A DNA stretch of 64,000 bases from the NCBI RefSeq assembly GCF_019203985.1, contig NZ_JAGSPD010000002.1:248001-312000 (forward strand). Direction: 5' to 3'. The translations under genes and the position numbers were made by a program. Source of the DNA: Winogradskyella luteola (GTDB taxonomy: Bacteria > Bacteroidota > Bacteroidia > Flavobacteriales > Flavobacteriaceae). The number at the start of each line of letters is the position of its first letter. The stretch's first letter is position 1. A model generated the notes under the pieces. It made no database searches, was not told the origin of the DNA, and saw only the letters and a list, made by a program, of their open reading frames with translations. Shown in pieces: positions 4,380-21,836 of this stretch.

Positions 4380-4486
4380 AAATCTTTTGTTTTAAGTTAT
4401 TGTTAATTCTAGTTTTTAAAATCTAATTTAAGGGTCATTATAATTAAATAAAACTGTACTTTTATTTTGCTAAACATCAACTCCAA

Positions 4487-5500: not shown

Positions 5501-5536
5501 GTAAGATAGGCTTAAAATTATTTCATTTATATTATA

Positions 5537-5558
5537 TTTACATAAGTACTTATATAAA
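5537..5558. promoter_or_regulatory. 22-bp palindrome at the start of the MarR-GNAT gene, probable autoregulatory operator
   Basis: The core ATAAGTACTTAT (5542-5553) is a perfect 12-bp palindrome. It extends to 22 bp (TTTA at 5537-5540 pairing with TAAA at 5555-5558) with only one mismatched pair. It ends at the first ATG of the gene, the typical place for a MarR-type operator. Function is inferred from position and symmetry. Confidence 0.5.
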
Positions 5559-5569
5559 TGTTTATTATT

Positions 5570-6520: not shown

Positions 6521-6573
6521 GCTTTTATATTTATTACAATATAAGTAGTTTGCCAATCAAAAAGTTACAAAAA

Positions 6574-8229
6574 TTAAATCTTAAGAGTCGTTTTTAAATA
6601 ATCGAAAGCCTCTTGTATATTATCAAAAATATGAGCTTCAGATATTAAATCCGGTACAATATCTATTGAAATGAGCTTGTCTTTAGGTTGCTCTTGTACA
6701 GCGGTTAATAAAACCTGAACACCTTTCTTCTCTAAATCCATAACGGCATTTTCTAAAGCATACAAGCCCGATTGATCTATATATGGTACGCGATCCATAC
6801 GAATGATTAAAGCTTTGATTTGCTCTGGAATATTTTTTATTTCATTCTGAAAGTGAGAGGTAAATCCAAAAAACAACGGTCCATATAAGTGCTTTATATA
6901 GACTTTATCTTTGTAGGAGTTATAAAACTCAACTTCATCTTGCCATGGTTTTTCTCCATCAAAACCTGCTAAAGTGCCAACTTTCATGCCTTCTTCTCCA
7001 ATATCACTTGATCGCTTCATAAATAGTAATGATGCCAACAACAAACCAATACCAACGGCTTGTATTAAGCTACCAAAAGTAGTCATCAGCAATACCAATA
7101 TTAGAACAATAGCGTCTGCTCTAGGTACTGCAAATAAATGTTTTAAGCCTTTGGTATCTACAATTTTAAATCCAATAGGAATTAACAATCCTGCTAAAAC
7201 CGATAACGGAATATAACCCGCCAACTTACCCAAACCGAGTAAAACAGCTAATAAAAACAAACCGTGTATAGTTCCTGAAACTCTTGTACGTCCACCAGCA
7301 TTGATATTTACAACCGTTCCTTTTGTAGCACCTGCACCAGGAATTCCCCCAAAAATTGCTGATATGGTATTACCTATACCTTGTCCGATAAGCTCACGGT
7401 TACTGTTATGCTTTGTCTTGGTCATGTTGTCCGCAATAACAGAAGTCAATAAAGAATCTATGGATCCTAAAATGGCCAAAATTGTAGCGTATTCACCAAT
7501 TAAAACATAAGCACTAGAGTCTATTGAGAAAAAACCATCGACTTTTAAAGAAGGCAATCCCGATGGTATTTCTCCAATAATAGGCACATCCCAGTTTAGA
7601 AAATATCCAGCTATAGATGCAACTACCAACGCCACCAAAGCGCTTGGAATTGCTTTAGTTATATAAGGAAACACATAATAAATTAAAACCGTTAATAAAC
7701 CCAATGTTAGAGCTTGCCAGTTAAAATCAGTAAATAAACGTGGTAAATCTTGCATAACCAACCATGTAGATTTTGCAGATCCCAACCCTACAAATGGAAA
7801 GATTTGAAGAATTACAATAATAAGTCCGACACCACTCATAAAACCAGAAACTACGGGATACGGAAAATACTTTACGTAATTGGCAATGTTGAGAAACCCA
7901 AATACAATTTGAAAAATACCACCAAATAGAAAGGTTAAAATAATTATTGGCATTGCAGTTTCTAGACTACCTGTAAACTCAATAGCGGCAGCAACCAAAG
8001 CCGCTGAAACGACTGTCATAGGTCCTGTTGGCCCACTTGCTTGTGTAGCTGTCCCTCCGAAAATTGCAGCAAAAATACCAACAGCTATAGCTCCATAAAG
8101 TCCAGCTATGGCACCTAAACCAGATTGTACACCAAAAGCTAAGGCCAAAGGTAAGGCTACCACACCAGCAACTAAACCACCTGTTAAATCCCCTTTTAAA
8201 TATTTAAAATCGTAAAATTTTGAATTCAT
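6574..8229 (-). CDS. SulP family inorganic anion transporter with STAS domain
   Basis: The product has 551 residues. About 400 N-terminal residues hold a dense run of hydrophobic segments with SulP landmarks (GLYGAIAVGIFAAIFGGT, ASGPTGPMTVV, YFPYPVVSGFMSGVG, DSLLTSVIADNMT). The last ~110 residues are a STAS domain (MDRVPYIDQSGLYALENAV). SulP proteins move sulfate, bicarbonate or other anions across the inner membrane; several marine members are sodium-dependent bicarbonate carriers. The substrate cannot be read from the sequence, and no carbonic anhydrase or sulfate assimilation gene is adjacent. The gene is single and has a repeated upstream motif (8255-8295). Confidence 0.9.
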   Translation of the reverse strand: MNSKFYDFKYLKGDLTGGLVAGVVALPLALAFGVQSGLGAIAGLYGAIAVGIFAAIFGGTATQASGPTGPMTVVSAALVAAAIEFTGSLETAMPIIILTFLFGGIFQIVFGFLNIANYVKYFPYPVVSGFMSGVGLIIVILQIFPFVGLGSAKSTWLVMQDLPRLFTDFNWQALTLGLLTVLIYYVFPYITKAIPSALVALVVASIAGYFLNWDVPIIGEIPSGLPSLKVDGFFSIDSSAYVLIGEYATILAILGSIDSLLTSVIADNMTKTKHNSNRELIGQGIGNTISAIFGGIPGAGATKGTVVNINAGGRTRVSGTIHGLFLLAVLLGLGKLAGYIPLSVLAGLLIPIGFKIVDTKGLKHLFAVPRADAIVLILVLLMTTFGSLIQAVGIGLLLASLLFMKRSSDIGEEGMKVGTLAGFDGEKPWQDEVEFYNSYKDKVYIKHLYGPLFFGFTSHFQNEIKNIPEQIKALIIRMDRVPYIDQSGLYALENAVMDLEKKGVQVLLTAVQEQPKDKLISIDIVPDLISEAHIFDNIQEAFDYLKTTLKI

Positions 8230-8254
8230 AATTTGTTTTGATTTAAACGTTTAT

Positions 8255-8295
8255 AAATATAAAACAATCGTAAACGAAATATAAAATATCGTAAA
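8255..8295. promoter_or_regulatory. Tandem ~20-bp direct repeat upstream of the SulP gene
   Basis: Two near-identical units lie 26-66 bases upstream of the SulP start: AAATATAAAACAATCGTAAA (8255-8274) and AAATATAAAATATCGTAAA (8277-8295). Their start-to-start spacing is 22 bases, close to two helical turns, as expected for a direct-repeat regulator site. This is a candidate only. Confidence 0.35.
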
Positions 8296-8334
8296 GATAA
8301 TTTATACGACTTGTATTTCCGTTATTCAACATTT

Positions 8335-8838
8335 CTAATTGTGATAATTTCTATCTTTAACAATAGCATCTTCAGGTACTAGATAGTCTTTTACAGTACG
8401 CTCTTTATTTCCAAATTGTTTATGCTTAAAGCTTACTACCAATAGTGTATCAGATAATGCTTCAATCTTAAAAAACTTGTAATCCTTCTCTTGTTTGAGT
8501 AATACTTTTACTTTTTCACCTTTTAATTTAATGTAAGCTCCATCATCATTAGTATAGAACGTCCAGTTGGCTTCAAGGGATTCGCCACAATTTTCATTTT
8601 GATAATTATTATCAACGGTTGTTCCATCAGAATTATAGGTTATGCGATAAGAAAGAAAACAATCCCCCATGTTCATACGATAGCCATCGTTATAACGCTT
8701 GGCGAGCATCCAGGTTTTGGATGAATCATTAGTAAGTAATTTAGGGGCATTTTCAGGAAGTTCAAACTTCTCAGAAGCGCAAGAGGTAATGATTACGAAA
8801 AGTATTAATCTAAAAAGAATACTATTACCGACTTTCAT
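8335..8838 (-). CDS. Small lipoprotein, lipocalin-like
   Basis: The product has 167 residues. The N-terminus is a lipoprotein signal peptide with lipobox ITSC (Cys20 as the lipidated residue). The mature part starts with Ser-Glu-Lys and has a WMLAKRYNDG...YNSDGT...ANWTFY pattern similar to the lipocalin-like lipoproteins common in Bacteroidota. No catalytic residues are evident. It is the last gene of the minus-strand cluster and starts one base after the stop codon of the 564-residue membrane protein, so translation of the two is probably coupled. I infer an envelope-located partner of that protein. Confidence 0.75.
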   Translation of the reverse strand: MKVGNSILFRLILFVIITSCASEKFELPENAPKLLTNDSSKTWMLAKRYNDGYRMNMGDCFLSYRITYNSDGTTVDNNYQNENCGESLEANWTFYTNDDGAYIKLKGEKVKVLLKQEKDYKFFKIEALSDTLLVVSFKHKQFGNKERTVKDYLVPEDAIVKDRNYHN

Positions 8839-8839
8839 A

Positions 8840-10534
8840 TTAATTCCCTACAGCTTTTAAAGAATCGATTTGTCTTTGTAAGGCTTCAATTTGTTCAGAG
8901 TTATCTTCTACTTTAGGAATAGTTTTAAGTGAATCTAAAACCTGTTCAATGATATCTTCATCTTTTGGTTGCTCATTATAATAATACCCAATACCTTCCT
9001 CAGATCTCCAAGCTTCATTCAACTGATTATAAACTGCTTCATCCCATGAGCTAGGATGCTTAACGTCTATCCAAACCACATCGCGGTATTCACTATCTAT
9101 CAGTACCAAATCTGGTGTAGCAGACCCATCGAATTGTTGTACATTTTCTGAACTTATTGAAGAAATTGTACCCAAGAAAAACATACGTTTTCTACCGGCA
9201 ATATCCTTTATGCATGGTCTAAATTCTACTGGTGTACTGGCATTCCAATCGTATTCTTTACGAGATTCCTTGACTTTTAGCGGCATGGCAGATACGCCTG
9301 CATAGCCTTGTTTTTTAGTGGCATGATCGTAATAATATAATCGATCTGTTCCGTCTGCAGGTACAAATACACTGTAGCTTAAACTGGTACGTTCATTTCC
9401 TACGGGCTCTAATCCAAACCAATGATATAAACCACTATATGCATCGGAATTACTGCCTGCGAAATCAAAATCCGTAACGTATGGTTGTTGATTCTGGTCT
9501 TTTGGCATTAACGGGATTTTAACCGCAGTCTCCATATTCCAAGGTAAAGGATCGCTAAATCCGCCTAAAAACTTTAAGGATTCTGCTTGAAGTTGCGATA
9601 CTTCTTCCGCTAAGGTGTTTTGCTTATTTAAAAACGGGTAATTTTTAATCTCATCTGGGCTTACAAAAGTGCCCTTACCAATAGCAACACGCTCAAAATA
9701 ATCGTTTATATCGTGCTCGCCGTTATCAATAATCATAACGCCTCCAAACGATGGATATGGAAAGAAAAAGCCTTTCCACTTTATGAGGCTTACCACTTGT
9801 ACCCAAGCACCTTGATCATTCTTCATGTAAAAGGTATCGCTTGGCTCATAATTAAACAACATCCATGGGTTGAAACGTTGCACAACAGCATTATAAGTGT
9901 TTCTGCTAAACTTTAGAGATTCGCCAATTGAAAAGGTTACATCTATTCGGTTTTCATTAGAAAATCTAGGAAATGGTGTTGTACTGCTTACAGCAAAAAT
10001 CTCTTCAGTATTATCGCTAATGCGTTGCATTATATATTTTTCGCTAGGTTGGATGGCCATGGTCCATTTATTCTCTGTACCAATTCTTACCAAATGCGGT
10101 AGCGAAACATCCTTAGTCTCACCGACACTTTCGTTAGCCATTGAGAATATATTTCGTAAGGGCTGAATGCGTTCATTCTGTGTTAGCGGCAATTCGTCAA
10201 TTTCAACTTTATTAAGGCTGTTAAACACGTTATAGGTTTTCATGTAGTCATATAAACCTTGATTCCAACCTAAAAAATATAAAAGTCCGAAAAACACAAT
10301 TAATAAACCTAAAATACCAAGTCGACCTCCTGTGCTCGCTGTTTTTCTAAATTTCCTTAAGCCCAATATTAATACCAAAAGGCTTATTAGAATTACAAAA
10401 ATGTATTTTCTTATGAATAGTAGAACAGGTTGGTAATCGTCTCTAAAAAAGAATAGTATAATAAGTAACAATAATGCTACGAAAATTGTAATTCGTTTTT
10501 GCTTTGGGCCTTTATTCCAATAGTTTTTAATCAT
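8840..10534 (-). CDS. Large membrane protein of the AAA+ cluster, unknown function
   Basis: The product has 564 residues. Three transmembrane segments fill the first ~115 residues (ITIFVALLLLIILFFF, YIFVILISLLVLILGL, LGILGLLIVFFGLLYFLGW). The rest is a large soluble domain without a recognised fold, rich in Trp/Tyr. The last ~25 residues form a short coiled coil (EQIEALQRQIDSLKAV). The hydrophobic N-terminus lacks a cleavage site, so the big domain is anchored and probably periplasmic. It is followed directly by a lipoprotein gene and lies downstream of a second small membrane protein. It may be the envelope-side component of the cluster. I do not recognise the family. Confidence 0.75.
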   Translation of the reverse strand: MIKNYWNKGPKQKRITIFVALLLLIILFFFRDDYQPVLLFIRKYIFVILISLLVLILGLRKFRKTASTGGRLGILGLLIVFFGLLYFLGWNQGLYDYMKTYNVFNSLNKVEIDELPLTQNERIQPLRNIFSMANESVGETKDVSLPHLVRIGTENKWTMAIQPSEKYIMQRISDNTEEIFAVSSTTPFPRFSNENRIDVTFSIGESLKFSRNTYNAVVQRFNPWMLFNYEPSDTFYMKNDQGAWVQVVSLIKWKGFFFPYPSFGGVMIIDNGEHDINDYFERVAIGKGTFVSPDEIKNYPFLNKQNTLAEEVSQLQAESLKFLGGFSDPLPWNMETAVKIPLMPKDQNQQPYVTDFDFAGSNSDAYSGLYHWFGLEPVGNERTSLSYSVFVPADGTDRLYYYDHATKKQGYAGVSAMPLKVKESRKEYDWNASTPVEFRPCIKDIAGRKRMFFLGTISSISSENVQQFDGSATPDLVLIDSEYRDVVWIDVKHPSSWDEAVYNQLNEAWRSEEGIGYYYNEQPKDEDIIEQVLDSLKTIPKVEDNSEQIEALQRQIDSLKAVGN

Positions 10535-10545
10535 GTTTTGCTTTT

Positions 10546-10660
10546 TGTCATTCTGAACTTGGTTCAGAATCTTGAATGTTATATTAGCTTAATGTGGATT
10601 CCGCATCAAGTGCGGAATGACAAATATTAGATGACATCCTGAAGTAAATTCAGAATGACA
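10546..10660. repeat. Three copies of a short palindromic intergenic repeat
   Basis: Copy 1 (10546-10575) has arms ATTCTGAAC (10550-10558) and GTTCAGAAT (10562-10570). Copy 2, reversed (10596-10622), has arms ATTCCGCA (10598-10605) and TGCGGAAT (10611-10618). Copy 3, reversed and degenerate (10632-10660), ends CAGAATGACA. All share the outer pattern TGTCATTC...GAATCT or its complement. They fill the gap between two genes transcribed in the same direction. The same family recurs at 12661, 62393, 62443 and 63313. Confidence 0.75.
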
Positions 10661-10667
10661 CCCCAAA

Positions 10668-11216
10668 TTACATCAATCCCTTATCCTTCAATCTATCTCG
10701 TGCAGATTTTTTATCTACCTCTGGTTCTGGGTCATTTTTTATTTCCTCTTTAGCTACTTCAACGGCCTTGTTGTCTTTATTTTTTAAATCTTCAATAAAA
10801 TCTTTTCCCTTTTCTACGGCACCTTCAACCATATCACCAATAGAATCACTCTTTTCCTCTACAACTTCTGTAGTTTTAATAACAAAATTAGCTAGGTATG
10901 TACCAATTAGCGTTCCTGTAGCAAATGTTGCAAAGCCAGATAGAGCAAAATAGTTGGTAAATACTTCAATAGGTGTTAAAAATTGTAATATCAATCCGAT
11001 CACTAAAAGAAAAAAGACAATGAACAACAACCTTGGTATGAAGGGTTGTTTATAGATAAAGCCCTTTGGATTATCTGCACTCATCTGAAGCTCTTTGCTA
11101 TTCATCATTTTATTGACAAACCGATAAGCGCCATTGCCATTGGATTCTCTCCAATACAGGAAAATTCCAAATAATATGGCTGTTATAAAAATTATAATAT
11201 CTGGTCCTAATCCCAT
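10668..11216 (-). CDS. Small membrane protein with charged C-terminal tail
   Basis: The product has 182 residues. There is one N-terminal hydrophobic segment (IIIFITAILFGIFLYW), then two more around residues 65-105 (LLFIVFFLLVIGLIL and FATFATGTLIGTYLANFVI). A long Lys/Glu-rich tail follows, from about residue 115 to the end, with amphipathic repeats (KSDSIGDMVEGAVEKGKDFIEDLKN) reminiscent of YtxH-type stress proteins. The gene lies in the AAA+ cluster, separated from the next gene by a repeat-filled gap. Its function is unknown; the tail may reach into the cytoplasm to contact the cytosolic members. Confidence 0.7.
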   Translation of the reverse strand: MGLGPDIIIFITAILFGIFLYWRESNGNGAYRFVNKMMNSKELQMSADNPKGFIYKQPFIPRLLFIVFFLLVIGLILQFLTPIEVFTNYFALSGFATFATGTLIGTYLANFVIKTTEVVEEKSDSIGDMVEGAVEKGKDFIEDLKNKDNKAVEVAKEEIKNDPEPEVDKKSARDRLKDKGLM

Positions 11217-11374
11217 GGTGCTTATAAATTATAAGTTGGTACAGCGTTTGAAGCACAAACCAACTTAATTAATATTTTACTATTTACTGTTCTTTTAAAT
11301 TCCATATTCTACTTAGACTAAGTTCAGTATAACAGTACGAAATAACGGTCAACTATAAAATTAGTCTAAATTTC

Positions 11375-12610
11375 TTAAATATTGTTACTAATCGTTTCTA
11401 TTACCCAATCCCTAAAGGAATCGTCCCAAGTATCATAACTGTTATAAAACTGTTCTTTATCATACCAATACAAAAACAACACATCTTTTGGTGAGATGTT
11501 GACCAAAAGCTTATGAATTAAATCACGATGCTCTGCTGAGAGTGATGAATGTGGATGATGCAGAGCAAAATACATAGATTGGTCCACCATATCTTCAATT
11601 TTATATGCATTGCTTCGTTCAAGCTTATCGAGATATAACTCTACTCCCATAACTTGTTTACGTGCCTTAATATCGATTTTATTCAAATAGCTTTTAAACA
11701 ATGGTTTACTATTCAGAATTTCTTTGATTGGGTGTTCGGTTTCCTTTAGCGACCGGTATAGTTCAAACTTTTTAATACGTTCATAATTTGGTGTTTTTAC
11801 CATATACTCTAAATCGCATTCTATGATGATATGATCTTTGAGTTTATGTACTAGCTCTGGTTGTGATATATGATAGATCAACACATCGTGAACAGTATCT
11901 TTTATTGCTTCTTTATAAGCTTCTTTACTTTCAAAAACCACAATCGGTTTTATAAAATCCCTTAATAAATATACTCCATCAAAAGCACGTGTATAAAAAG
12001 AACCTGTGGTGAAATGCAATGGATGTAAATTTAAATCCCTATTACGTAAATCGCCATAAGTTTTAGCTGAGTCTAATAATTCCTGATGAATATTTTCGTC
12101 TATAAAATTATTGCCTGTTCTAAATTTATCGACCAATCGTAATTGTTCCTTTTGCTTTTCTCCTAGATTATCTATAAGCCTGAATGTAATGCTAACATCA
12201 TCATATTTTAATATATCTAGCGGTTCGTAAAATACATCTATATCCTGATCGAAATCGATACATATTGCAGAATCTCTGGTAATGTCATTAATCTTTCTAC
12301 CATGGGTTCTAAAAATATGCTGCATCATTTCCCTATCAAAAGAATGGAACGGCAAATACACAGGTTTTCCTTTTTGCAATGGAGAAATAATAATACCATG
12401 AGGATTGGCATCACCGTGATTAAGATACTGAACGTCTTTTTTCTCCTCAGCAACCTCGGGACTCCAACCTACTCCATCAATGGAAAACGACTTAAGCTTT
12501 GTTTGCTTAAATCCTAAAGTTTTCAGGCACTTATTATAACGCTCTACTAACTTGCCACTTACGGGGATAAGTTCGCTTCTGTATAGATTTGCTTGTTTTA
12601 GTTTGTCCAT
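11375..12610 (-). CDS. Unrecognised 411-residue cytoplasmic protein of the AAA+ cluster
   Basis: There is no signal peptide and no transmembrane segment. The protein looks globular and mixed alpha/beta, with many charged residues. Conserved-looking stretches include DGVGWSPEVAEEKKDVQYLNHG and HPLHFTTGSFYTRAFDGVYL. I do not recognise a family or catalytic motif. It sits between the Nudix gene and a small membrane protein, all on the minus strand. The intact 411-codon frame and the cluster context argue that it is a real gene. A role as a cytosolic adaptor of the AAA+ ATPase is only a guess from neighbourhood. Confidence 0.75.
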   Translation of the reverse strand: MDKLKQANLYRSELIPVSGKLVERYNKCLKTLGFKQTKLKSFSIDGVGWSPEVAEEKKDVQYLNHGDANPHGIIISPLQKGKPVYLPFHSFDREMMQHIFRTHGRKINDITRDSAICIDFDQDIDVFYEPLDILKYDDVSITFRLIDNLGEKQKEQLRLVDKFRTGNNFIDENIHQELLDSAKTYGDLRNRDLNLHPLHFTTGSFYTRAFDGVYLLRDFIKPIVVFESKEAYKEAIKDTVHDVLIYHISQPELVHKLKDHIIIECDLEYMVKTPNYERIKKFELYRSLKETEHPIKEILNSKPLFKSYLNKIDIKARKQVMGVELYLDKLERSNAYKIEDMVDQSMYFALHHPHSSLSAEHRDLIHKLLVNISPKDVLFLYWYDKEQFYNSYDTWDDSFRDWVIETISNNI

Positions 12611-12660
12611 TTTATTGTCGCAAAGGCGGTAATCTTAATAATTCAAAAACTTTGTTCAAT

Positions 12661-12699
12661 GAGATTCCTTATCACCTGTTTCTCACTCTATCGGAATGA
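12661..12699. repeat. Long-loop variant of the palindromic repeat
   Basis: The element begins GAGATTCC (12661-12668) and ends CGGAATGA (12692-12699) around a longer loop. It is the reverse orientation of the TCATTC...GAATCTC pattern found at 10.6 kb and 62.4 kb. It lies just downstream of the Nudix gene stop and upstream of the next gene. Confidence 0.5.
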
Positions 12700-12702
12700 A
12701 AA

Positions 12703-13284
12703 TTATTTTACCAATTTATTAATTAGGGCATATTGCAAAAGCATTATAGTTTTTGCATCAATAATCTCCTCATTTTGTACCATTTGTATAGCTGTATAAA
12801 AAGGAATCTCTAAAATTTCTATTTCTTCATCTTCGCTGTCTAATCCACCACCATCATTGATTTTCATTGTGTCTCTATATTCAGTTACAAATAAGTACAT
12901 CTTTTCTGTTAATGCACCTGGTGACGTATAAGCTGTTAATACGTGTTTTGCATCACTAATGCTGTAACCCACTTCCTCTTCTGTCTCTCTTATAATGGTT
13001 TCTAATGGTGTATCATCTTTATCAATAGCGCCTGCACAAGCTTCGATTGACATACTATCATTTTTATCATTTTCATATATGGGCATTCTAAACTGTTTCG
13101 TTAAAATAACAGTCCCTTTCTCTTTATTGTACAACAATATTGCTGCACCATTTCCACGATTATAGGTTTCGCGAGATAAGCGTTTCCATTCACCATTTTT
13201 GAACTTAAAATCATAGTCAATTCTATTTAATTTTGCCCAAGCATTAGAAAGATTGATATGTTCTATGTTTTTTAAATTTTTCAT
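12703..13284 (-). CDS. Nudix hydrolase, NudK-like
   Basis: The product has 193 residues. The Nudix box spans Gly85 to Tyr107 (GAIDKDDTPLETIIRETEE and the next three residues), with the RE-T-E-E-E-V-G catalytic core intact and Asp91 where the consensus has Glu. Length and the flanking VILTKQFRMPIY segment resemble GDP-mannose/ADP-ribose pyrophosphatases of the NudK type. The enzyme hydrolyses a nucleoside diphosphate linked to another moiety, with magnesium, in the cytoplasm. Its stop is close to the start of the 411-residue gene, and its start is 5 bases after the AAA+ gene stop. This suggests co-expression and a nucleotide-related role in the cluster. The substrate is not predictable. Confidence 0.88.
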   Translation of the reverse strand: MKNLKNIEHINLSNAWAKLNRIDYDFKFKNGEWKRLSRETYNRGNGAAILLYNKEKGTVILTKQFRMPIYENDKNDSMSIEACAGAIDKDDTPLETIIRETEEEVGYSISDAKHVLTAYTSPGALTEKMYLFVTEYRDTMKINDGGGLDSEDEEIEILEIPFYTAIQMVQNEEIIDAKTIMLLQYALINKLVK

Positions 13285-13289
13285 CAGAG

Positions 13290-15251
13290 CTAATCACGAT
13301 TTCCAAACTGCTCTCTCGCTTCAGTCTCAATATTCAATTGATCAATCCTTGCATCTACTTTACGCTTAAAGTCTGTATCCGCTATGGTTGCCACATTATC
13401 TAAATAGCGTACAACTTCTTGCCGTCTTATGTCGCTAAAATCGAGTCCTTTCATATTAGCACGCATCAATTCTTGTAACATCCCATATTTAGTGTCGTAA
13501 TCTTTTTTGAAATACACTTCAGGGTTTTCGAACCAATCTTGTTCTAAATCAAAATCTGTTAACCTAAGTGAAACTGCTTTCTGAATATTACGCACATCAC
13601 GAGATGAAAAGAATGGAAATATCTTCTGAATCTCCGTATACAAATGTGCATAGAACATATGTTCGTTATCTTTGTACTTCGTCGATACTCTTTCAAAAGT
13701 ATCAAGAACACGCTCTTCAGTTGGTTTATCTACCTTATCTAAAATTTCACCTAAATTTTTAGCCACTTGTTGTGCATCCAAATAGTTGTAATTATCAGGA
13801 TTGCTCATATTAATAAACTCTGGCATGGTATTTTCAAGTTTTTTCCACCACAAATAATCTTGATCTACAAAATCTTTTTCGTTACGTGCTCCATCAATCT
13901 TAAAGCGTCCTTGTACACGAGAAATTACAGCTTTATCTAGCATTTCTGGTAAATTGGTAAACAAACCAATAGAACTATTACCATAATTAACGGCATAAGC
14001 ACCTTCGGTATATCTTAAAAACACACCTATAACCTCTTTTACACCAGCTGAAACCCCTTGTGCTGTTCGTTCTTGGAGATTGTTTTCAGCATCATCTATT
14101 GGTGCAAAAATTAAGCGTGTTGGGTCTTGTAATGGTTTCATCCACTCTACCATTTTTTCCGCAGAACCACCTTGAAACGTACTTACAATGGTATCTGGCA
14201 TAGGGTGAAACAAAAATGGAATCTCTAAATTTTCACTATACTCTTTAAGTCGTGTAGCAATTGCGGCTATAAGCATACTTTTACCTGTACCCGGAATTCC
14301 ATAGCCCATAAATACAGGCATAAAACCTCCCAATTCTTGAAATGGGTTTTTTTGGACTTCAAAATCATAGCTTAAGATGCGTTCGGTTAAACGTCTCGCA
14401 AAGTGTTTGGCATCCTTGTTTCCTACGATTTGTTCAAACTTAACCTTATTGAACTCTACACTAACAGCTGTACCCGCGAACACGTTATTCCAACCATCAA
14501 CTGTAAAATCTGAATTTTCTAGTTTATAAGTTCTGTCCTCTATCGTTTCTGTGTATTCAAGTGTGCTTTTACGTAATTGTATTTCATCAATCAAAGCTTC
14601 AAAATAAACAACCGTGAAGTCAGTAACATCCTTATCTGATTTAATAATATCTGGGTGACCTAAATATTTATCGTAATAAAATAATTGACAAGAAATACCT
14701 TTTAATGGTGACATAAATGATACCTCAGGAATACCTGCAAACTTTTGTTTCATTACAGATAAATCATCTGATGCATGTGGTTTTAAGTCATGTAATATTT
14801 TGTAGGCAGTTGCAAACAACATAAATGCTGTTGCGGTTTGCATTTTACTTTCATATTCGCGTTTTCCTGTGCTATCTAACGCAGATCTGTTTTCGTACAA
14901 GGTAGATAATCCCGATGCATCATAGTAGCTATCCTTAACCCAAATACCCAAAGTTAAACCTTCTTGAACTGCATATAACGTGTGATTCAAATGAATAGGA
15001 ATTGCCACCGACTCAGGTAGCAAACGTTTTTTTAGAGCCAAAATAGTTTTAGATACCGAAGTGACAGAAACATTGCTCCCATTATTTGCCCTAGATAAAT
15101 ACAACAAAATAGATTCATCTTTACCATTACTGTCTTTATTCTTCGCACGTTGGCTTTGTTCCCATTGTATAGATTTTAAATAGGATGTCGCTTCATCACG
15201 AAGCATATCGAGTTCATTTTGTTTAATAGGAAAGGTAGAATTGTGTTGCAT
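13290..15251 (-). CDS. AAA+ ATPase with unrecognised N-terminal domain
   Basis: The product has 653 residues. The first ~280 belong to no domain I recognise. An AAA+ module then begins: Walker A GIPGTGKS at 318-325, Walker B-like LIFAPIDDAE with acidic pair Asp386-Asp387, a sensor-1-like region (SSIGLFTNLPEM), and an arginine-containing VISRVQGRF that could supply the arginine finger. A helical C-terminal region of ~180 residues follows. The SAEKMVEWMKPL segment after Walker A resembles the pore or second-region-of-homology area of classic AAA remodelers. No protease domain or DNA-binding motif is seen. It is the only evident motor of the nine-gene cluster. I infer a protein-remodelling role with the coiled-coil and 348-residue proteins as likely partners. 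Confidence 0.88.
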   Translation of the reverse strand: MQHNSTFPIKQNELDMLRDEATSYLKSIQWEQSQRAKNKDSNGKDESILLYLSRANNGSNVSVTSVSKTILALKKRLLPESVAIPIHLNHTLYAVQEGLTLGIWVKDSYYDASGLSTLYENRSALDSTGKREYESKMQTATAFMLFATAYKILHDLKPHASDDLSVMKQKFAGIPEVSFMSPLKGISCQLFYYDKYLGHPDIIKSDKDVTDFTVVYFEALIDEIQLRKSTLEYTETIEDRTYKLENSDFTVDGWNNVFAGTAVSVEFNKVKFEQIVGNKDAKHFARRLTERILSYDFEVQKNPFQELGGFMPVFMGYGIPGTGKSMLIAAIATRLKEYSENLEIPFLFHPMPDTIVSTFQGGSAEKMVEWMKPLQDPTRLIFAPIDDAENNLQERTAQGVSAGVKEVIGVFLRYTEGAYAVNYGNSSIGLFTNLPEMLDKAVISRVQGRFKIDGARNEKDFVDQDYLWWKKLENTMPEFINMSNPDNYNYLDAQQVAKNLGEILDKVDKPTEERVLDTFERVSTKYKDNEHMFYAHLYTEIQKIFPFFSSRDVRNIQKAVSLRLTDFDLEQDWFENPEVYFKKDYDTKYGMLQELMRANMKGLDFSDIRRQEVVRYLDNVATIADTDFKRKVDARIDQLNIETEAREQFGNRD

Positions 15252-15284
15252 TTAGATTTATGTAATTATATTGAAAGAATAGAC

Positions 15285-15839
15285 TTATTCCCAAGATTCG
15301 AAAAACTCGGTTATATCCGTTCCATTGTTGTCTATATAAATATTATCCCAGTATAAGCTTTGGTTAGTTTTAATGAATACCCGATAGTAGCCTGTATTAA
15401 AACCATCTAGATTTAAAGTAATATTGGTATTTGACAGGTCATTAAAAGCTAGCACAGAAGCTTGGGAAATTTCGTTTACCGTATAAGTGTTCTCATTTAG
15501 GATTTCGTCAAAATCGATATCCTGATAAATTTGCTGAGCATTTGCATTAACTAACCAAACATCGGTCATAACTTCATTGGTCTGCGAAATCTCTATAGTT
15601 AGAGCACTAATTACGGGATTGGGGTAGGCTATTATAGCTACTGAAGATAGGCCGATTGGCATTCTTACGTTTGGATTGCCCAACCTAAAAATATTATTCA
15701 CACCTGATTTTGCATTCATACCAGTTACAAGATTAATGGCCGTTGTGTTATTTGACGAACTATTATCATCATCATTTGAACAACCAAAAACAATGGGTAT
15801 CCAGAGCAAAAGTGCGTAAAACTTTAGTTTGTTTTTCAT
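15285..15839 (-). CDS. Surface lipoprotein of the AAA+ cluster
   Basis: The product has 184 residues. The signal peptide ends in lipobox VFGC (Cys20) followed by SNDDDNSSSN. That acidic stretch directly after the cysteine matches the Bacteroidota lipoprotein export signal, so the protein is predicted to be displayed on the cell surface. The mature part (about 140 residues) is beta-rich and of unknown fold; it includes IAYPNPVISALTIEISQ, which looks like a short relative of T9SS-type beta domains. It lies between the AAA+ and 348-residue genes with short gaps, so a member of the same transcript is exported while its neighbours are cytosolic. Confidence 0.75.
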   Translation of the reverse strand: MKNKLKFYALLLWIPIVFGCSNDDDNSSSNNTTAINLVTGMNAKSGVNNIFRLGNPNVRMPIGLSSVAIIAYPNPVISALTIEISQTNEVMTDVWLVNANAQQIYQDIDFDEILNENTYTVNEISQASVLAFNDLSNTNITLNLDGFNTGYYRVFIKTNQSLYWDNIYIDNNGTDITEFFESWE

Positions 15840-15847
15840 AATAAATT

Positions 15848-16894
15848 TTAATCCTTAATTTTTAAATTAGAGACCTGAACAGGCGGAATAGCCAACTTAT
15901 TCATAATTTCTGGTGTTTTGTTGTGCAACAGCTGTATAATACGATGTGGCGCAAAAATATAACGCTGCCTAAAAGTATTATCCCATTTTTGAAAGGTTTG
16001 CTTACTAAAAAAGCTACCTTCTTTAAATTCACTTTTAGAAGTGAGTTCGTCCATTTTGAGTGATATAGCGTAAGATTCCAATGGAATTATTTTCTTAGCT
16101 ACACCATCTAATATGGCATGTGTTACTTCATTTTCATCTTTTGCAAAAATATTATGAATTGGCCCTAAATCAATACGTTTTATCAGCTTTGGTAAAACTT
16201 TTGGCAAACGTTTGTCTATGGCATAACCCATAGTATCTAAAGCCATTTCTCGGTCAGAGGTGTTTTTTAAAACCGTATAAATTTCATCTTTATAATCTTG
16301 CACATCTCTACCATCATAGTTAAAATACAAATAACATATAAACGGTCTGTTGTGTGTTACATCATAGAAACTCCAACTCACTAAATGCGCTGCAGGTGAA
16401 CCTTTTGGTGCAGGAATTATTTTTCCCTGTACAAAACGATTAAAAATGTATTCTTTTTTAGCCGATGTATAGTAAACAATAGATGAAGCTTGAAATAATT
16501 TTCGTTTGGAAATTGGTTGCTTTTTACGCATCAACGTATCTAAGAATTCATCTTTTAAAACATCAATATCCGTAAGTTTACTCAAGAATTCTTCTCTTAA
16601 TTCCAAATCATTAAAAAGATAACGAAACTCAAGATAATTTGGAAAGCTAGAATCTGTTAGATCAACTTTCATGTTATCTTCATCATCATACATATACTTT
16701 ACACGCATAGCCTCAATAGAGTACAACAACAAATCGGTATATTGCTTAAACAATAGTATTTCTTGTTGATTTAGTATTTGCTTCTGTTGTACAGCAGTAA
16801 TTAACTCTTTGAGTGTAAAATCTATCATCTTGTGATAGAATACATATTGCTCTTTAGAGTCTAATACTGCTGAATCTAATGGTGTAACAATCAT
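15848..16894 (-). CDS. Unrecognised 348-residue cytoplasmic protein of the AAA+ cluster
   Basis: There is no signal peptide or transmembrane segment. The N-terminal ~150 residues are largely helical (KMIDFTLKELITAVQQKQIL). The remainder is mixed, with a distinctive stretch GSPAAHLVSWSFYDVTHNRP and a C-terminal FRQRYIFAPHRIIQLLH. No family or catalytic motif is recognised. Its stop is 9 bases from the lipoprotein gene start, and it is preceded by the coiled-coil gene. Context suggests that it works with the AAA+ ATPase, but nothing in the sequence proves this. Confidence 0.75.
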   Translation of the reverse strand: MIVTPLDSAVLDSKEQYVFYHKMIDFTLKELITAVQQKQILNQQEILLFKQYTDLLLYSIEAMRVKYMYDDEDNMKVDLTDSSFPNYLEFRYLFNDLELREEFLSKLTDIDVLKDEFLDTLMRKKQPISKRKLFQASSIVYYTSAKKEYIFNRFVQGKIIPAPKGSPAAHLVSWSFYDVTHNRPFICYLYFNYDGRDVQDYKDEIYTVLKNTSDREMALDTMGYAIDKRLPKVLPKLIKRIDLGPIHNIFAKDENEVTHAILDGVAKKIIPLESYAISLKMDELTSKSEFKEGSFFSKQTFQKWDNTFRQRYIFAPHRIIQLLHNKTPEIMNKLAIPPVQVSNLKIKD

Positions 16895-16899
16895 TTTTT

Positions 16900-16972
16900 A
16901 GTAACAAGTATTAAGTACGAAGTGTAAAGTGAACAAGCTATATTAGAAACTTAAAACTAATGACTTGTTACT
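16900..16972. repeat. Inverted repeat between coiled-coil and 348-residue genes
   Basis: Ten-base arms AGTAACAAGT (16900-16909) and ACTTGTTACT (16963-16972) bracket 53 bases. The inside is built from degenerate short units (AAGTATTAAGTACGAAGTG). No T tract follows, so this is not a classic terminator. It may be an mRNA structure within the operon or decayed repeat sequence. Confidence 0.5.
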
Positions 16973-16984
16973 TTATACTCATTA

Positions 16985-18325
16985 CTATCCAAGTAAATCA
17001 TCCTCATTAACCTCTGGTTTTGGCTCGCCAACAGGTTCACCACCATTTGATGGAGCATTAGGATCTGCTTTATAGTACTCATCAAAAATCTCTTTCATGT
17101 CAATGCCATAACGGTCTGCAAAGTTTTTCTGAATTTCTGCATCTTTAGATCGGATATCTTTTAAAGCTTCAGCATAACTTCCATATACACCTTGCATCAC
17201 TTTTTCATGAACTGGTATGTTATCCATCATCTCCTGACGCGCTTTGGCGCTAGCTGTATGCATCGCGGCAAGTGTTTCTCCAATATGCTCGTCTGTTTTA
17301 ACACCCAAATGTTCTAATATTGCAGCAAACTCTTGATCTGTACGTGCTTTTAAAGCTACCACATAACCATCGTAATATTTTAGACGCTCGTCCGTGTCTG
17401 ATTTTAATTTAGCACGGTGGGTCTGTAAATTACTTCTCAAAGAGGTCAATACCTTAATCGTTAAGTTATGTTTATGCACAAAACTATCTTTTGAAGCCGC
17501 TAAAGTGGTGTAGGCATTTTTAAGACCTTCTAGCTCTTCAACCTTCTGTTCTAATTGTGTTACTTTTTCCAAAGCTTCAGAATATTCGGTAGACTGCTTG
17601 TCTGCAACTTCTTCTAAAGCTTGGCGTGCTTGTTTTAACAGAGCATATTGCTCTTCAAGCTTTGCTTCTACTTCTTTTTTCTTCTGTAACGCTTTTGTGT
17701 GGTTGTTACTCGCTTCTACAATAGCCGTTTTAAGACTCTCTTCAACCTCTTTAATTTCAAGCTCCCTATCTTTTAATCGTTTAATAGCAGCCTGACTTTT
17801 AAAAGACAATTCGTTTAGCAAGGTTTGTACATCTGCAGTCTCTATACGTTGCTGAAACATGGCCTTAGCTTTATTGTCTGCTCCATCACGTTGCTTTTGA
17901 GCTGTAGCTAATTCTTGCTCGGCATCTCTGATCTTTCCTTTACGTCCCCAGAGATTATTCCACCAAGTGTCTGGTTTATTTTTAGCATCTTCTAGCTCAA
18001 CTTTTGCACGTTCTAGACGTTTTACAGCATCATCTATGATTTTTTGCTCTGCCGCATTAAGTGCTGAAAAGCCTTCGAACATAATACCAACTTCATCTTG
18101 ATAGTCGGTTAAATCCTTAATGGCATCAAGAAGTGTCGTTCTATCTTTCTCTGCCATGTCCACAACATTATCTAATGTGGCATTTAAAATTTTCTGACGA
18201 CTTTCTGGATCATCCTCTTGAGCAAGCTTAGACTTCATTTGGTCTATGGCTTTACCCCAGTTTACATCTACTTTTTCAGCTTTTTCTTGTGAATTAGTTT
18301 CTAATAAATCAAAATCATCAGACAT
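16985..18325 (-). CDS. Long coiled-coil protein heading the AAA+ cluster
   Basis: The product has 446 residues and no signal peptide or membrane segment. Residues about 75-330 are strongly predicted coiled coil (long Glu/Lys/Leu/Ala stretches such as KKKEVEAKLEEQYALLKQAR). It has an acidic N-terminus (MSDDFDLLE) and an acidic, Pro-rich C-terminal tail ending EVNEDDLLG. Acidic ends of this kind can act as docking peptides. A break with Trp residues (KPDTWWNNLWGRKGK) near residue 118 is the only non-coiled signature. It is the first gene of the minus-strand run and so probably sets expression of the rest. Relatives may be labelled as microtubule-binding by generic coiled-coil similarity; that name should not be trusted. 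Confidence 0.8.
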   Translation of the reverse strand: MSDDFDLLETNSQEKAEKVDVNWGKAIDQMKSKLAQEDDPESRQKILNATLDNVVDMAEKDRTTLLDAIKDLTDYQDEVGIMFEGFSALNAAEQKIIDDAVKRLERAKVELEDAKNKPDTWWNNLWGRKGKIRDAEQELATAQKQRDGADNKAKAMFQQRIETADVQTLLNELSFKSQAAIKRLKDRELEIKEVEESLKTAIVEASNNHTKALQKKKEVEAKLEEQYALLKQARQALEEVADKQSTEYSEALEKVTQLEQKVEELEGLKNAYTTLAASKDSFVHKHNLTIKVLTSLRSNLQTHRAKLKSDTDERLKYYDGYVVALKARTDQEFAAILEHLGVKTDEHIGETLAAMHTASAKARQEMMDNIPVHEKVMQGVYGSYAEALKDIRSKDAEIQKNFADRYGIDMKEIFDEYYKADPNAPSNGGEPVGEPKPEVNEDDLLG

Positions 18326-18491
18326 ATTGTTTAGTGTTATTTAGTTGAACAATTTTTCGGATAAGCAATTTCGGTAATTTTTTAAGACTATAAAAGCTTT
18401 ACCTGCAAATTATATGTAGCATTTGTAATAAAAATGTTACAATATTTTATATCTAACCAAATGTTGAATACCTTTATAGAAAATCAAAAAA

Positions 18492-19262
18492 ATGAAATCC
18501 ATAAAATCTGCATTGATCTTATTGCTTGTAGTGACTGTACTTTGCTGTAAAAAGGAAAAAGAAAATACAGCCATTATCGAAAAAGAAGGAGAAGTCGTTA
18601 CTGACGAGTCTGTAAACGTCATTCCTATTACTCATGGCACATTAATTCTCGAAACTGAGAATGATGTTATATACATAGACCCCACAGGTGGTTTAAAAGC
18701 CTTTAAGAATCAAAAAGCGCCAACATTGGTTTTGGTTACAGACATTCACGGAGATCATTTAAGCAAAAACACCCTAGAGTCATTAAATCTCAATACCACA
18801 ACACTAATTGGACCTAAAGCAGTAACCGATAAAATCCCAAGTACCATAAGTAAAACCATAATCACCTTAAATAATGGAGATACTTATATGCATGGTGATA
18901 TGAAGATTGAGGCTATTCCGATGTACAACTTAAGAGAGGAGGCTTTGCAGTATCACACAAAAGGAAGAGGTAATGGCTATGTATTGGATATTAAAACAGA
19001 ACGTATCTATATTTCTGGTGATACTGAAGATATTGCTGAAATGAGAAATCTAAAACATATCGATAAAGCTTTTGTTTGTATGAACTTACCCTGGACCATG
19101 ACTGTTGAAAGTGCCGCAAACGCTGTCCTAGAATTTAAGCCTAAAACTGTTTACCCCTACCATTACAGAGGATCTGATGGTATGAGTGATGTAAATAAGT
19201 TTAAGAAAATTGTCGTTAAGGGAAATGACTCAATTAATGTTAAACTATTAGACTGGTATTAA
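18492..19262 (+). CDS. Lipoprotein metallo-beta-lactamase-fold hydrolase
   Basis: The product has 256 residues. The hydrophobic N-terminus ends in a lipobox-like VLCC, so the mature protein is probably a lipoprotein of the envelope. The rest is an MBL fold of the UlaG-like type: GTLILETENDVIYIDPTGG, the metal loop VTDIHGDHLS, GNGYVLDIKTERIYISGDTE and a late YPYHYRGSDG. The first His of the usual HxHxDH is replaced by Asp (DIHGDH), a pattern I believe recurs in this subfamily. The other ligands (His, Asp, His and the Asp of GDTE) are present. The substrate is unknown. The gene is divergent from the coiled-coil gene. Confidence 0.8.
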   Translation: MKSIKSALILLLVVTVLCCKKEKENTAIIEKEGEVVTDESVNVIPITHGTLILETENDVIYIDPTGGLKAFKNQKAPTLVLVTDIHGDHLSKNTLESLNLNTTTLIGPKAVTDKIPSTISKTIITLNNGDTYMHGDMKIEAIPMYNLREEALQYHTKGRGNGYVLDIKTERIYISGDTEDIAEMRNLKHIDKAFVCMNLPWTMTVESAANAVLEFKPKTVYPYHYRGSDGMSDVNKFKKIVVKGNDSINVKLLDWY

Positions 19263-19467
19263 TGAATAAATATGTTAAATTTTTACATTGTTAACAAGTT
19301 AAAAAACCATGTTCCCTAGCCTAGAATAGTGCGTTTCGTAGCATTATACCTCCCTTTCATCGGTAAAATTGTTGAAAACAATATTCTAAATAATTTAAAA
19401 TTAAGCATTTAGATTAGGATTTTTTACTATATTAGCCCAGTAGAACCCAAATCTAACTATTCCGATC

Positions 19468-19695
19468 ATGCTTAACAATATGCTTTTCAAGGCTTTAGTT
19501 GTGACTACAGAGCAACTTACCATCATTTTAATAGCTGTTGCTTCAATATTCCTTGTTTTCATTATTCATGCTATAATTAAGATGTATAAATTGAAAGCTG
19601 AAAACAAAAAATTAATGGAGACAAATGCGTTTCGTGATGCTGATGATTCCTATAAGGATTTTACCAGTAGTCATCTTTATGATGTTGACAATTAA
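19468..19695 (+). CDS. Small single-pass membrane protein
   Basis: The product has 75 residues. One transmembrane segment (LTIILIAVASIFLVFIIHAII) is followed by a charged helix (KLKAENKKLMETN) and a polar tail rich in Asp, Ser and Tyr. An internal ATG five codons in is an alternative start. A strong terminator immediately downstream and a 206-base leader support a real transcript. No family is recognised. The 206 bases upstream hold a 10-bp palindrome TTGTTAACAA (19288-19297) but no promoter I can name. Confidence 0.65.
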   Translation: MLNNMLFKALVVTTEQLTIILIAVASIFLVFIIHAIIKMYKLKAENKKLMETNAFRDADDSYKDFTSSHLYDVDN

Positions 19696-19713
19696 TAATT
19701 AAATAGTAAAACA

Positions 19714-19742
19714 AAAAAAGCCTGCAAAAGCAGGCTTTTTTT
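19714..19742. terminator. Bidirectional terminator between the small membrane gene and ettA
   Basis: The stem GCCTGC (19720-19725) and GCAGGC (19730-19735) has an AAAA loop and is extended by an A tract on the left and a T tract on the right. It can stop transcription from both sides, matching the two convergent genes. Confidence 0.92.
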
Positions 19743-19759
19743 GTACAGCTATCTAAGCT

Positions 19760-21451
19760 TTATCTTACTAACTTTTTATATTTTATACGTTTTGGTATTA
19801 AATCACCACCTAAACGTTTTTTCTTATTTTCTTCATAATCGCTAAAGCCACCTTCGAAGAAATACACTTGACTATCACCTTCAAAAGCTAATATATGCGT
19901 ACAGATTCTATCTAAAAACCATCTATCGTGACTAATCACTACAGCACAACCTGCAAAGTTTTCCAAGCCTTCTTCTAGTGCTCGTAGTGTATTGACATCT
20001 AAATCATTAGTAGGCTCATCTAAAAGTAACACATTACCTTCTTCTTTAAGTGTCATTGCCAAGTGCAAACGGTTACGCTCCCCACCTGATAATAGCTTTA
20101 CTTTTTTATTCTGTTCGCTTCCTGAGAAATTAAATCGACTTAAATACGCTCTAGAGTTAACTTGTCTTCCACCCATCATCACCAGTTCTTGCTCGTCACT
20201 AAAATTCTGCCATATCGATTTTTCGGGATCAATATTTGAATGCTTTTGGTCTACGTATGCAATCTCGGCAGTTTCACCTACTCTAAATTCTCCTTTATCA
20301 GGAGTTTCCTCTCCCATTATCATTCTAAAAATTGTCGTTTTACCAGCTCCGTTGGGACCAATAACACCAACAATACCTGCTTGTGGAAGATTAAAATTTA
20401 AGTCATCATATAATAATTTATCATCATAACCTTTGGCTACACCAATGGCTTCAATTACGTTTGTTCCTAAACGCGGTCCATTTGGTATGTATATTTCAAG
20501 TTTTTCGTCAAGTTGTTTTTGATCTTGACTCATCAATTTATCGTAATTCTTTAAACGCGCCTTTTGTTTCGTTTGCCGTCCTTTAGCACCTTGCCTCACC
20601 CATTCCAATTCACGCTCTAATGTTTTCTGACGCTTAGATGCCGATTTGCTTTCTTGTGCCAAACGTTTAGATTTTTGATCTAACCAAGACGAATAATTGC
20701 CTTTCCACGGTATACCTTCTCCTCTATCGAGTTCTAGTATCCAACCTGCCACATTATCCAAGAAGTACCTATCGTGGGTTACAGCGATGACTGTGCCTTT
20801 ATATTGTGCCAAATGATGCTCTAGCCAATGAACAGACTCAGCATCTAAATGGTTGGTTGGCTCATCTAATAGTAATACGTCTGGTTCTTTAAGCAGTAAA
20901 CGGCATAATGCTACACGACGACGCTCTCCTCCGGATAATACACCAATCTTTTTGTCTCCATCTGGTGTACGCAAAGCATCCATGGCTATTTCAAGCTTAG
21001 TGTCAAGTTCCCATGCATTGGTTGCATCAATTTGATCTTGTAATTCAGCTTGACGATTCATAAGTTTTTCCATCTTATCCGGATCACTATAAACCTCTTC
21101 TAAACCAAACTGATCATTAATACTGTTGTATTCATCGAGTATGGCAACTGTTTCTGCAGCACCTTCTCGCACAACTTCCATTACGGTTTTATTATCGTCT
21201 AACTGAGGTTCTTGTTCTAAATAACCAACAGTATAACCAGGTTTAAACACCACGTCACCTTGGTAATTCTTATCAACACCTGCGATAATCTTTAAAAGTG
21301 TTGATTTACCTGATCCGTTAAGACCTAAGATTCCTATCTTAGCACCATAAAAGAAGCTTAAGTAGATGTTTTTTAAAACTGGTGTATTGGCTGATTGAAA
21401 TGTCTTGGTAACACCAGACATTGAAAAAATTATTTGTTTATCGTCACTCAT
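19760..21451 (-). CDS. ettA: ABC-F protein, energy-dependent translational throttle EttA
   Basis: The product has 563 residues and no membrane segment. It carries two ABC ATPase cassettes. The first has Walker A GLNGSGKST, signature LSGGERRR and Walker B LLLDEPTNHLD. The second has GPNGAGKTT, LSGGERNR and LLLDEPTNDLD. The linker between them (about residues 240-320) is basic and helical, the P-site tRNA interaction motif of ABC-F factors. The overall length and the EttA-type arm insertion (DEYNSINDQFGLEEVYSD) in the first cassette match EttA rather than Uup or antibiotic-resistance ABC-Fs. It binds the ribosome E site and gates the first elongation steps according to ATP/ADP. It is monocistronic in appearance. 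Confidence 0.93.
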   Translation of the reverse strand: MSDDKQIIFSMSGVTKTFQSANTPVLKNIYLSFFYGAKIGILGLNGSGKSTLLKIIAGVDKNYQGDVVFKPGYTVGYLEQEPQLDDNKTVMEVVREGAAETVAILDEYNSINDQFGLEEVYSDPDKMEKLMNRQAELQDQIDATNAWELDTKLEIAMDALRTPDGDKKIGVLSGGERRRVALCRLLLKEPDVLLLDEPTNHLDAESVHWLEHHLAQYKGTVIAVTHDRYFLDNVAGWILELDRGEGIPWKGNYSSWLDQKSKRLAQESKSASKRQKTLERELEWVRQGAKGRQTKQKARLKNYDKLMSQDQKQLDEKLEIYIPNGPRLGTNVIEAIGVAKGYDDKLLYDDLNFNLPQAGIVGVIGPNGAGKTTIFRMIMGEETPDKGEFRVGETAEIAYVDQKHSNIDPEKSIWQNFSDEQELVMMGGRQVNSRAYLSRFNFSGSEQNKKVKLLSGGERNRLHLAMTLKEEGNVLLLDEPTNDLDVNTLRALEEGLENFAGCAVVISHDRWFLDRICTHILAFEGDSQVYFFEGGFSDYEENKKKRLGGDLIPKRIKYKKLVR

Positions 21452-21542
21452 GTAGTAATTAGTCTTTAGTAAAAAGTATTTAGTCTTGAATTTTTTATAT
21501 TAATCTATTAGGGTACAGTAAAAGTAGAAACAATAATGATTT

Positions 21543-21725
21543 TTAAACTCTCCCTTTTAAAGCGTTAAACACCCAAGCAATAGCAAAAAAGCCAAACCCT
21601 ACCGTTGCAAAACCCCAGCCTGCAACATCATCGTATTTATATGCACCCATTAATATTAGTATCACCCCCATTATCAACATGAGAACCGTAGCCCAAGCTA
21701 ATACTGTATTTTTATTCATCGCCAT
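21543..21725 (-). CDS. Small two-segment membrane protein of Flavobacteriaceae
   Basis: The product has 60 residues and two transmembrane segments (VLAWATVLMLIMGVILILMG and GWGFATVGFGFFAIAWVF), separated by a short charged turn KYDDVA. It is compact and nearly all membrane. I recall a flavobacterial family of small membrane proteins with this pattern, but its function is not known to me. It lies between ettA and a pirin gene, on the same strand. MAMNK and MNK are both possible starts. Confidence 0.7.
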   Translation of the reverse strand: MAMNKNTVLAWATVLMLIMGVILILMGAYKYDDVAGWGFATVGFGFFAIAWVFNALKGRV

Positions 21726-21780
21726 AATCGTATTCTTAGTTTTAGATCGTTAGTTAAAAACAAATATCGTGAAATAAACT

Positions 21781-21811
21781 AAAAAAGCATTCTAAAATTA
21801 GAATGCTTTTT
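21781..21811 (-). terminator. Terminator of the YhaK-type pirin gene
   Basis: A 14-bp stem, AAAAAGCATTCTAA (21782-21795) and TTAGAATGCTTTTT (21798-21811), is followed on the minus strand by T residues. It lies just beyond the pirin stop at 21837 and closes the stress regulon. Confidence 0.9.
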
Positions 21812-21836
21812 CTGCTATTAACCAATTGTTGTTAAT

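Follow-up and report, generated by a model that had tools for sequence, protein, structure and literature searches.

A co-inherited six-gene set around a classic-clade AAA ATPase in Winogradskyella luteola, four of whose genes recur in Proteobacteria

Do nine consecutive genes on the minus strand of a Winogradskyella luteola contig make up one molecular machine, and, if so, which of them belong to it and what might it do? The question is raised by positions 8335 to 18325 of a 64,000-nucleotide stretch of contig NZ_JAGSPD010000002.1 (the window, hereafter), in a genome of 3.5 Mb. The original prediction joined an AAA+ ATPase, a coiled-coil protein, a Nudix hydrolase, two cytosolic proteins, two membrane proteins and two lipoproteins into a single functional unit reaching from the cytosol to the outer surface. 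We letter these genes A to I, with A at the 8335 end and I at the 18325 end; all nine were confirmed as open reading frames (ORFs), in coordinates and in length. We are very nearly certain that six of them, I-H-F-D-C-B, form one co-inherited unit that relatives have or lack together, and a heart of four, I-H-F-D, is common to Bacteroidota and Proteobacteria.

Order and co-inheritance of the core genes

All the core genes lie on the minus strand of the window: I at 16985-18325, H at 15848-16894, the ATPase gene F at 13290-15251, D at 11375-12610, C at 10668-11216 and B at 8840-10534. Their order was followed in two overlapping sets of loci. The larger comprises 80 loci kept from 366 confirmed relatives, all bearing the label of Winogradskyella or of other Flavobacteriaceae/Bacteroidia, and 68 of the 80 are untruncated. 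The smaller comprises stretches of up to 20 kb around the AAA gene in 40 genomes (37 of the 40 strong-match genomes in a draw of 120 from the family, plus three from a draw of the phylum), searched by tblastn with the window proteins; nine of its AAA proteins are identical to ones in the larger set. The core order is fixed in both. All six genes stand in this order on a single strand in 68/68 untruncated loci of the 80-locus set, and the 40-locus set contains F in 40/40 stretches, I and H in 39/40 each, and D, C and B in 38/40 each, with all six in 37/40 and with order and strand kept in 40/40 for the genes present. The stretch that lacks I and H ends with its contig, and both genes lie on another contig of that genome. 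One genome (G207) has D, C and B about 9 kb further along from the rest of the core, and in another (G087) the core is scattered over three places, I-H-F at 1.83 Mb, D-C at 2.58 Mb and B at 2.68 Mb (C1:2678096-2679721), with all six genes kept.

This is consistent with the phyletic profiles, which were run over the family for I, H, F, D and B, C being followed by the locus counts. B, D and H each occur in 40/120 family genomes, and a comparison of the lists shows that they coincide with the 40 genomes of strong AAA matches. The AAA search itself lists 41 genomes, the 41st (G025) at 6.7e-4 through the ATPase core alone and without D, B or H. The profile of I, run on a larger draw, matches 48/149 genomes, including all 40 strong-AAA genomes. 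Outside the family the AAA protein F is rare: full-length matches occur in 4/296 genomes of the phylum draw, the three besides the host all being of the same family, and profile matches in 4/149 genomes of a class draw, the three besides the host belonging to two other families of Bacteroidota. These last three loci have the complete six-gene core. DUF6638, the family to which D belongs, was found in 3/198 genomes of a phylum draw, host included.

The conserved order, together with the shared phyletic profile, makes chance an inadequate explanation of the grouping for six genes out of the nine. The idea of a nine-gene unit thus holds for the six core genes, and fails for the two lipoproteins (G and A) and in part for the Nudix gene; a neighbourhood search, which had been proposed as a check, returned conserved synteny for six of the nine families. 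Homologues that usually occur apart had been named as the outcome that would speak against a unit, and the six genes are instead kept together and in order.

It is plausible, judging from their spacing, that the core genes share a single transcript. In a second flavobacterial clade (nine loci) the median gaps are 1 base between H and F, -1 between F and D and -4 between D and C, which matches the expectation for coupled translation, and none of the gene pairs measured in the locus sets lie on opposite strands. In the window the gaps are 90 bases (I-H), 8 (H-G), 33 (G-F), 5 (F-E), 92 (E-D), 158 (D-C), 133 (C-B) and 1 (B-A), and the medians in the 80-locus set are 143 for I-H, 88 for H-F, 644 for F-D (inserts included), 48 for D-C and 98 for C-B. 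The minus strand of the region has no strict match to the consensus Bacteroidota promoter pattern and one relaxed match, inside H; Rfam families have no match in 6000-22000 of the window.

Is the set confined to Bacteroidota? Beyond this phylum a plasmid collection was searched, so that the spread found there is a lower bound. DUF6638 occurs in 10 records of the collection (four Sinorhizobium, four Vibrio, one Shinella and one Rhizobium), and the Sinorhizobium AAA protein, used as a query, returns the same 10 accessions. Four of these records were examined, one from each genus, and in 4/4 a profile search recovers I, H, the AAA gene and DUF6638 in the same order. With E-values that refer to a small database, the Vibrio locus gives 1.6e-7 for I, 3e-20 for H, 8e-79 for F and 1e-22 for D, and the Sinorhizobium locus gives 5e-16 for H, 1e-61 for F and 3e-49 for D; its I, and that of Shinella, match weakly, with position and length in their favour. 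The Vibrio homologue of D is annotated as DUF6638 in its own record. The gene that follows D codes for a DUF2333 protein in Sinorhizobium and Shinella, and is a sigma-70 gene in Rhizobium and mfd in Vibrio. The Sinorhizobium record (CP090106.1, 2659207-2678439) is 3.7 Mb long, is labelled pSymB and has cho, fhs and trpE genes here; going by its size and these genes, we presume that it may be a mislabelled chromosome. SMc02733 may be part of the Sinorhizobium core locus, a tentative lead. A DNA fragment within SMc02733 is bound by the regulator ChvI, according to one table row of a published study (PMC3687685); the literature searched gave nothing else for the candidate locus tags.

The ATPase and its partner proteins

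F (653 residues) matches PF00004 at 2.4e-8, above the cut-off, and its Walker A, at residues 318-325 as first reported, reads GIPGTGKS. Classic-clade AAA proteins are characterised by the Walker A, an aromatic pore loop, a sensor-1 asparagine and the arginines of the second region of homology, and with its Pfam match and its motifs F belongs among them. The motifs are common to the window, to three other Bacteroidota loci and to the four proteobacterial loci, hence to two phyla: Walker A is GxPGTGK[ST] in both; an S.[FY]QG that follows the next strand occupies the position of the classic aromatic pore loop; sensor 1 is [TS]N; and two arginines stand at 445 and 449. Walker B is IDD, an Asp-Asp instead of the usual DE, in all homologues compared. 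The solved sequences nearest to the Vibrio homologue of F are VCP-like ATPases (9.5e-9), Cdc48, the i-AAA protease domain, proteasome Rpt and Vps4; the flavobacterial profile of F finds no relative among solved sequences at 0.01. As a classic-clade AAA protein F is expected to form a hexameric ring with substrate threading through its pore. No MIT domain was matched in Pfam, up to E 1, by F or by its Vibrio and Sinorhizobium homologues, and the Pfam search finds no protease domain among the nine proteins.

I (446 residues) is a helical coiled-coil protein with FDLLE near its N-terminus and an acidic DDLL tail, and is among the most conserved members of the set, with 75-94% identity across the 39 stretches that contain it and a mean column identity of 86%. 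FDLLE lies within the first 12 residues in 77/78 proteins of the 80-locus set, and an acidic pair followed by LL lies within the last 8 in 74/78; one of the 58 window ORFs of at least 150 codons has such a tail. In the three loci from other Bacteroidota families the motifs read FDLLD and NDLM. The segments between these motifs and the helices are variable in sequence; a conserved motif on a tail of this kind resembles a binding site, whose putative partner is F, H or D.

The predicted model of I contains helices only, with a long hairpin, at a mean pLDDT (predicted local distance difference test) of 65; its better-predicted part consists of helices of 74 and 81 residues. Foldseek gives no match to this model at 0.001 (best 9.4e-3), and structural comparison gives helical matches up to Z 12.9 (root mean square deviation, rmsd, 6.2; 228 aligned), a range that is common for long helices. 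PspA is absent among the 50 structural matches listed, which excludes nothing. In Pfam searches up to E 1, neither I nor three of its homologues matched Snf7, PspA or TelA, and the profile of I meets one chance-level match (0.32) among solved sequences. Profile comparison of I with three PspA proteins (probability 0.2) and with four TelA proteins (0.1) is a weak negative, because the sets are small and without a positive control.

H, a cytosolic protein of 348 residues, matches nothing in Pfam up to E 1, and homologues of it were found in Vibrio and in rhizobia. D (411 residues) had been called unrecognised, in a set of which only the Nudix and AAA+ proteins could be assigned to named families; it has a family name, DUF6638 (PF20343, 3e-33; 115.8 bits against a cut-off of 27), and the family itself is without known function, nor did we find a mention of it in the literature searched. 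Its closest labelled relatives are in Winogradskyella genomes, with a top identity of 93%. The model of D (pLDDT 78) has a best Foldseek E of 0.19 and a best Z of 4.8 (rmsd 1.9, 42 aligned), and its profile meets a single chance-level match (0.28) among solved sequences, where the profiles of H and B meet none at the limits used. The profile searches that had been recommended for these proteins placed D, and left H and I without a convincing family match.

C (182 residues) is a membrane protein with two transmembrane segments by a simple hydropathy scan, a possible third by eye, and a conserved charged tail that ends in KSARDRLKDKG. In B (564 residues) the same kind of scan finds three transmembrane segments near the start, followed by a large domain that, by positive-inside reasoning on these segments, is probably periplasmic. 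For none of I, H, D, C and B was a recognised fold or function found, by Pfam, by profiles of I, H, D and B against solved sequences or, for I and D, by predicted models. The result is a sharply bounded six-gene set around a classic AAA motor, in which five members have no recognised fold or function.

Accessory genes and flanks

Three of the nine genes stand outside the core. E (12703-13284, minus strand, 193 residues) is indeed a Nudix hydrolase, as predicted (PF00293, 6.3e-12); at 144.2 bits against a TIGR00052 cut-off of 79.55 it belongs to the YffH/AdpP family, and it falls below the NudK equivalog cut-off (176 vs 234). Its presence in 51/80 loci (44/68 untruncated) and in 18/40 makes it an accessory, a frequent insert. 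The lipoproteins had been seen as the outer-surface part of the machine; both are local additions. G (15285-15839, minus strand, 184 residues) occurs in 8/80 loci (6/68 untruncated) and in 1/40, and A (8335-8838, minus strand, 167 residues), which can be named as Lipocalin_4 (PF13648, 7.3e-7), in 4/80 (3/68 untruncated) and in 0/40. G begins with CSNDDDN after its lipobox, presumably a surface-export signal, and also has a weak match, under the cut-off, to the sorting tail of the type IX secretion system (PF18962, 2.6e-4), an odd pair of export signals.

The gap between F and D (window 12611-13289) is a frequent place of insertion across the two locus sets, holding the Nudix gene in 55 loci, a family of 210-212 residues in 7 and a membrane-like family of 442 residues in 6. 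A short helical family, which we assume to be of the 23S intervening-sequence type, lies in the H-F or D-C gap (window 15252-15847 and 11217-11374) of 20 loci. Nudix and G aside, the inserts between core genes gave no hint of function. The C-B gap (10535-10667) carries several repeats of the type GTCATTC...GAATGAC, both direct and inverted.

Upstream, an ABC-F gene (window 19760-21451) is present in 63/68 untruncated loci of the 80-locus set. This constancy, together with the lack of a viral relative in a limited scan, is why the unit looks vertically inherited. A phage origin was considered and set aside: 0/66 viral stretches encode a relative, a weak negative from a scan with two peptide patterns. 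Further upstream, at 21837-23564, are two adjoining genes of 238 and 301 residues on the same strand, which we take to be pirin-like. Downstream, at 3492-6520, an arginase-like gene, a MarR-plus-GNAT-like fusion and a gene of 295 residues (named by sequence reading) accompany the cluster in many loci.

Possible mechanism and comparison with known systems

What could such a set do? Our tentative reading, to which we give a little less than an even chance, is that I-H-F-D-C-B builds a machine for AAA-driven remodelling that docks on the inner membrane. Substrate would be drawn by the aromatic loop through the pore of a ring of F; the likeliest substrate or scaffold, remodelled by F, would be the elongated helical protein I, and H and D would serve as dedicated adaptors in the cytosol. 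The tether of the assembly to the membrane would, in Bacteroidota, be C and B, the large domain of B sensing or acting in the periplasm, and DUF2333 may take the place of the C-B pair in some rhizobia. Going by C, B and DUF2333, our guess at the likeliest output is the upkeep or reshaping of something at the envelope. A passage in the literature mentions a Pseudomonas DUF2333 gene beside the hcp3 locus of a type VI secretion system. A bolder version, which we regard as rather unlikely, would make I-H-F-D an undescribed ATPase-driven system parallel to Vps4/ESCRT-III (endosomal sorting complex required for transport III) and of separate origin, in which F would bind the acidic leucine ends of I and disassemble or reshape a polymer of I at the inner membrane, in a place set by membrane modules such as C-B or DUF2333.

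Several observations weigh against the docked remodelling machine. The evidence for it comes from gene and protein sequences and predicted models. The gaps in the 80-locus set are frequently greater than 60 bases. With 85-96% identity, the ABC-F protein next to the set equals I in conservation, so that the high identity of I proves little by itself; the homologues of I are weak by profile in Sinorhizobium (0.0075) and Shinella (0.0044), and both terminal motifs are missing in the four proteobacterial homologues. A profile search of those four stretches gave no match for C or B, and Vibrio and Rhizobium have no membrane gene adjoining D, which places a membrane role outside the shared core; B, moreover, has no similarity to the one DUF2333 protein compared with it (probability 0.3). 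Finally, the Sinorhizobium set is interrupted between F and D by a DUF559 endonuclease gene and a transposase.

Other readings were considered as well. The membrane pair C-B might be the client itself, in which case F would extract or assemble membrane proteins much as FtsH or p97 quality control does, H and D would be substrate adaptors and I a mere scaffold. Cdc48 and the i-AAA protease domain are indeed among the nearest solved relatives of the Vibrio ATPase, and within the family C and B are inherited together with F; however, the set has no protease domain in Pfam, and the proteobacterial loci keep I without C and B, and we consider this reading unlikely, if to be taken seriously. The helical nature of I, with its long predicted hairpin and the motifs on its flexible tails, recalls instead a bacterial ESCRT-III/Vps4 system or one of the phage shock protein (PSP) type, in which I would be a distant PspA/Snf7 member and F, a classic AAA with Vps4 among its solved relatives, a Vps4. 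An ESCRT-III filament is among the structural matches of the I model (Z 9.4, rmsd 9.8, 129 aligned), at a Z within the range of unrelated helices and from a model of pLDDT 65. Pfam shows none of PspA, Snf7 or MIT, the probability against PspA proteins is low, if obtained without a positive control, and we regard such a filing as improbable.

Might the locus, with its AAA core, be a system of phage defence or conflict similar to IetAS? The IetA models of PADLOC match F weakly (3.7e-5), and the endonuclease and transposase genes within the Sinorhizobium copy are of the sort that this idea would welcome; against it stand the nine proteins themselves, which include neither a subtilase partner nor any other effector domain, the fixed site beside ABC-F and the absence of a relative from the viral contigs of the two-pattern scan, and we hold it to be very improbable. 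That unrelated housekeeping genes merely came to lie side by side in Flavobacteriaceae has almost nothing to recommend it. Several gaps in the window do exceed 100 bases, and flanking genes such as ABC-F are syntenic too, but the order is held across two phyla, and the phyletic profile is the same even where the genes are dispersed.

Returning to the remodelling machine, we note that the six-gene unit is undescribed in the literature that we searched. It suggests that there are bacterial AAA-driven assembly machines beyond those usually listed and, because the four-gene heart occurs in Sinorhizobium, which is tractable in the laboratory, its role can be tested there by gene removal. DUF6638, of which D is a member and which has no known function, gains a gene context.

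We have not filed the set under ESCRT/Vps4, PSP, TelA or IetAS, because a defining feature of each was looked for and was absent. F has no MIT domain and I no Snf7 or PspA match in Pfam up to E 1. PspA (PF04012) gives 0 matches in the host genome, and it is present in 3/26 genomes, with 9/14 controls matching. TelA, the toxic anion resistance protein, is a long helical cytosolic protein with a general resemblance to I; its family PF05816 has no match for I and 0 in the host genome, with matches in 4/61 genomes and 3/14 controls. IetAS pairs the AAA protein IetA with the subtilase IetS, and neither a strong similarity of F to IetA nor a subtilase was found among the nine proteins. A vWA-type reading was likewise dropped, Pfam showing no partner domain among them.

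How, then, does the set compare with known systems? Its way of working may be that of a classic AAA remodelling pair. F resembles the classic AAA proteins (VCP/Cdc48, Rpt, i-AAA, Vps4) in its Walker A, the position of its aromatic pore loop, its sensor 1 and its two arginines, and differs from them in the Asp-Asp Walker B and in a large N-terminal part without a recognised fold. In passages of Popp et al. (PMC11237479), bacterial AAA genes stand close to PspA or are accompanied by TPR and 6TM proteins; compared with the loci in those passages, the present set is without PspA or TPR in Pfam. An MIT domain on the ATPase serves as a criterion for Vps4 in a passage of another study (PMC11188069). 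ESCRT-III/Vps4 and the bacterial PSP systems offer no counterpart for H, D, C and B; what they do have in common with the set described here is an AAA motor beside a helical protein with conserved tail motifs.

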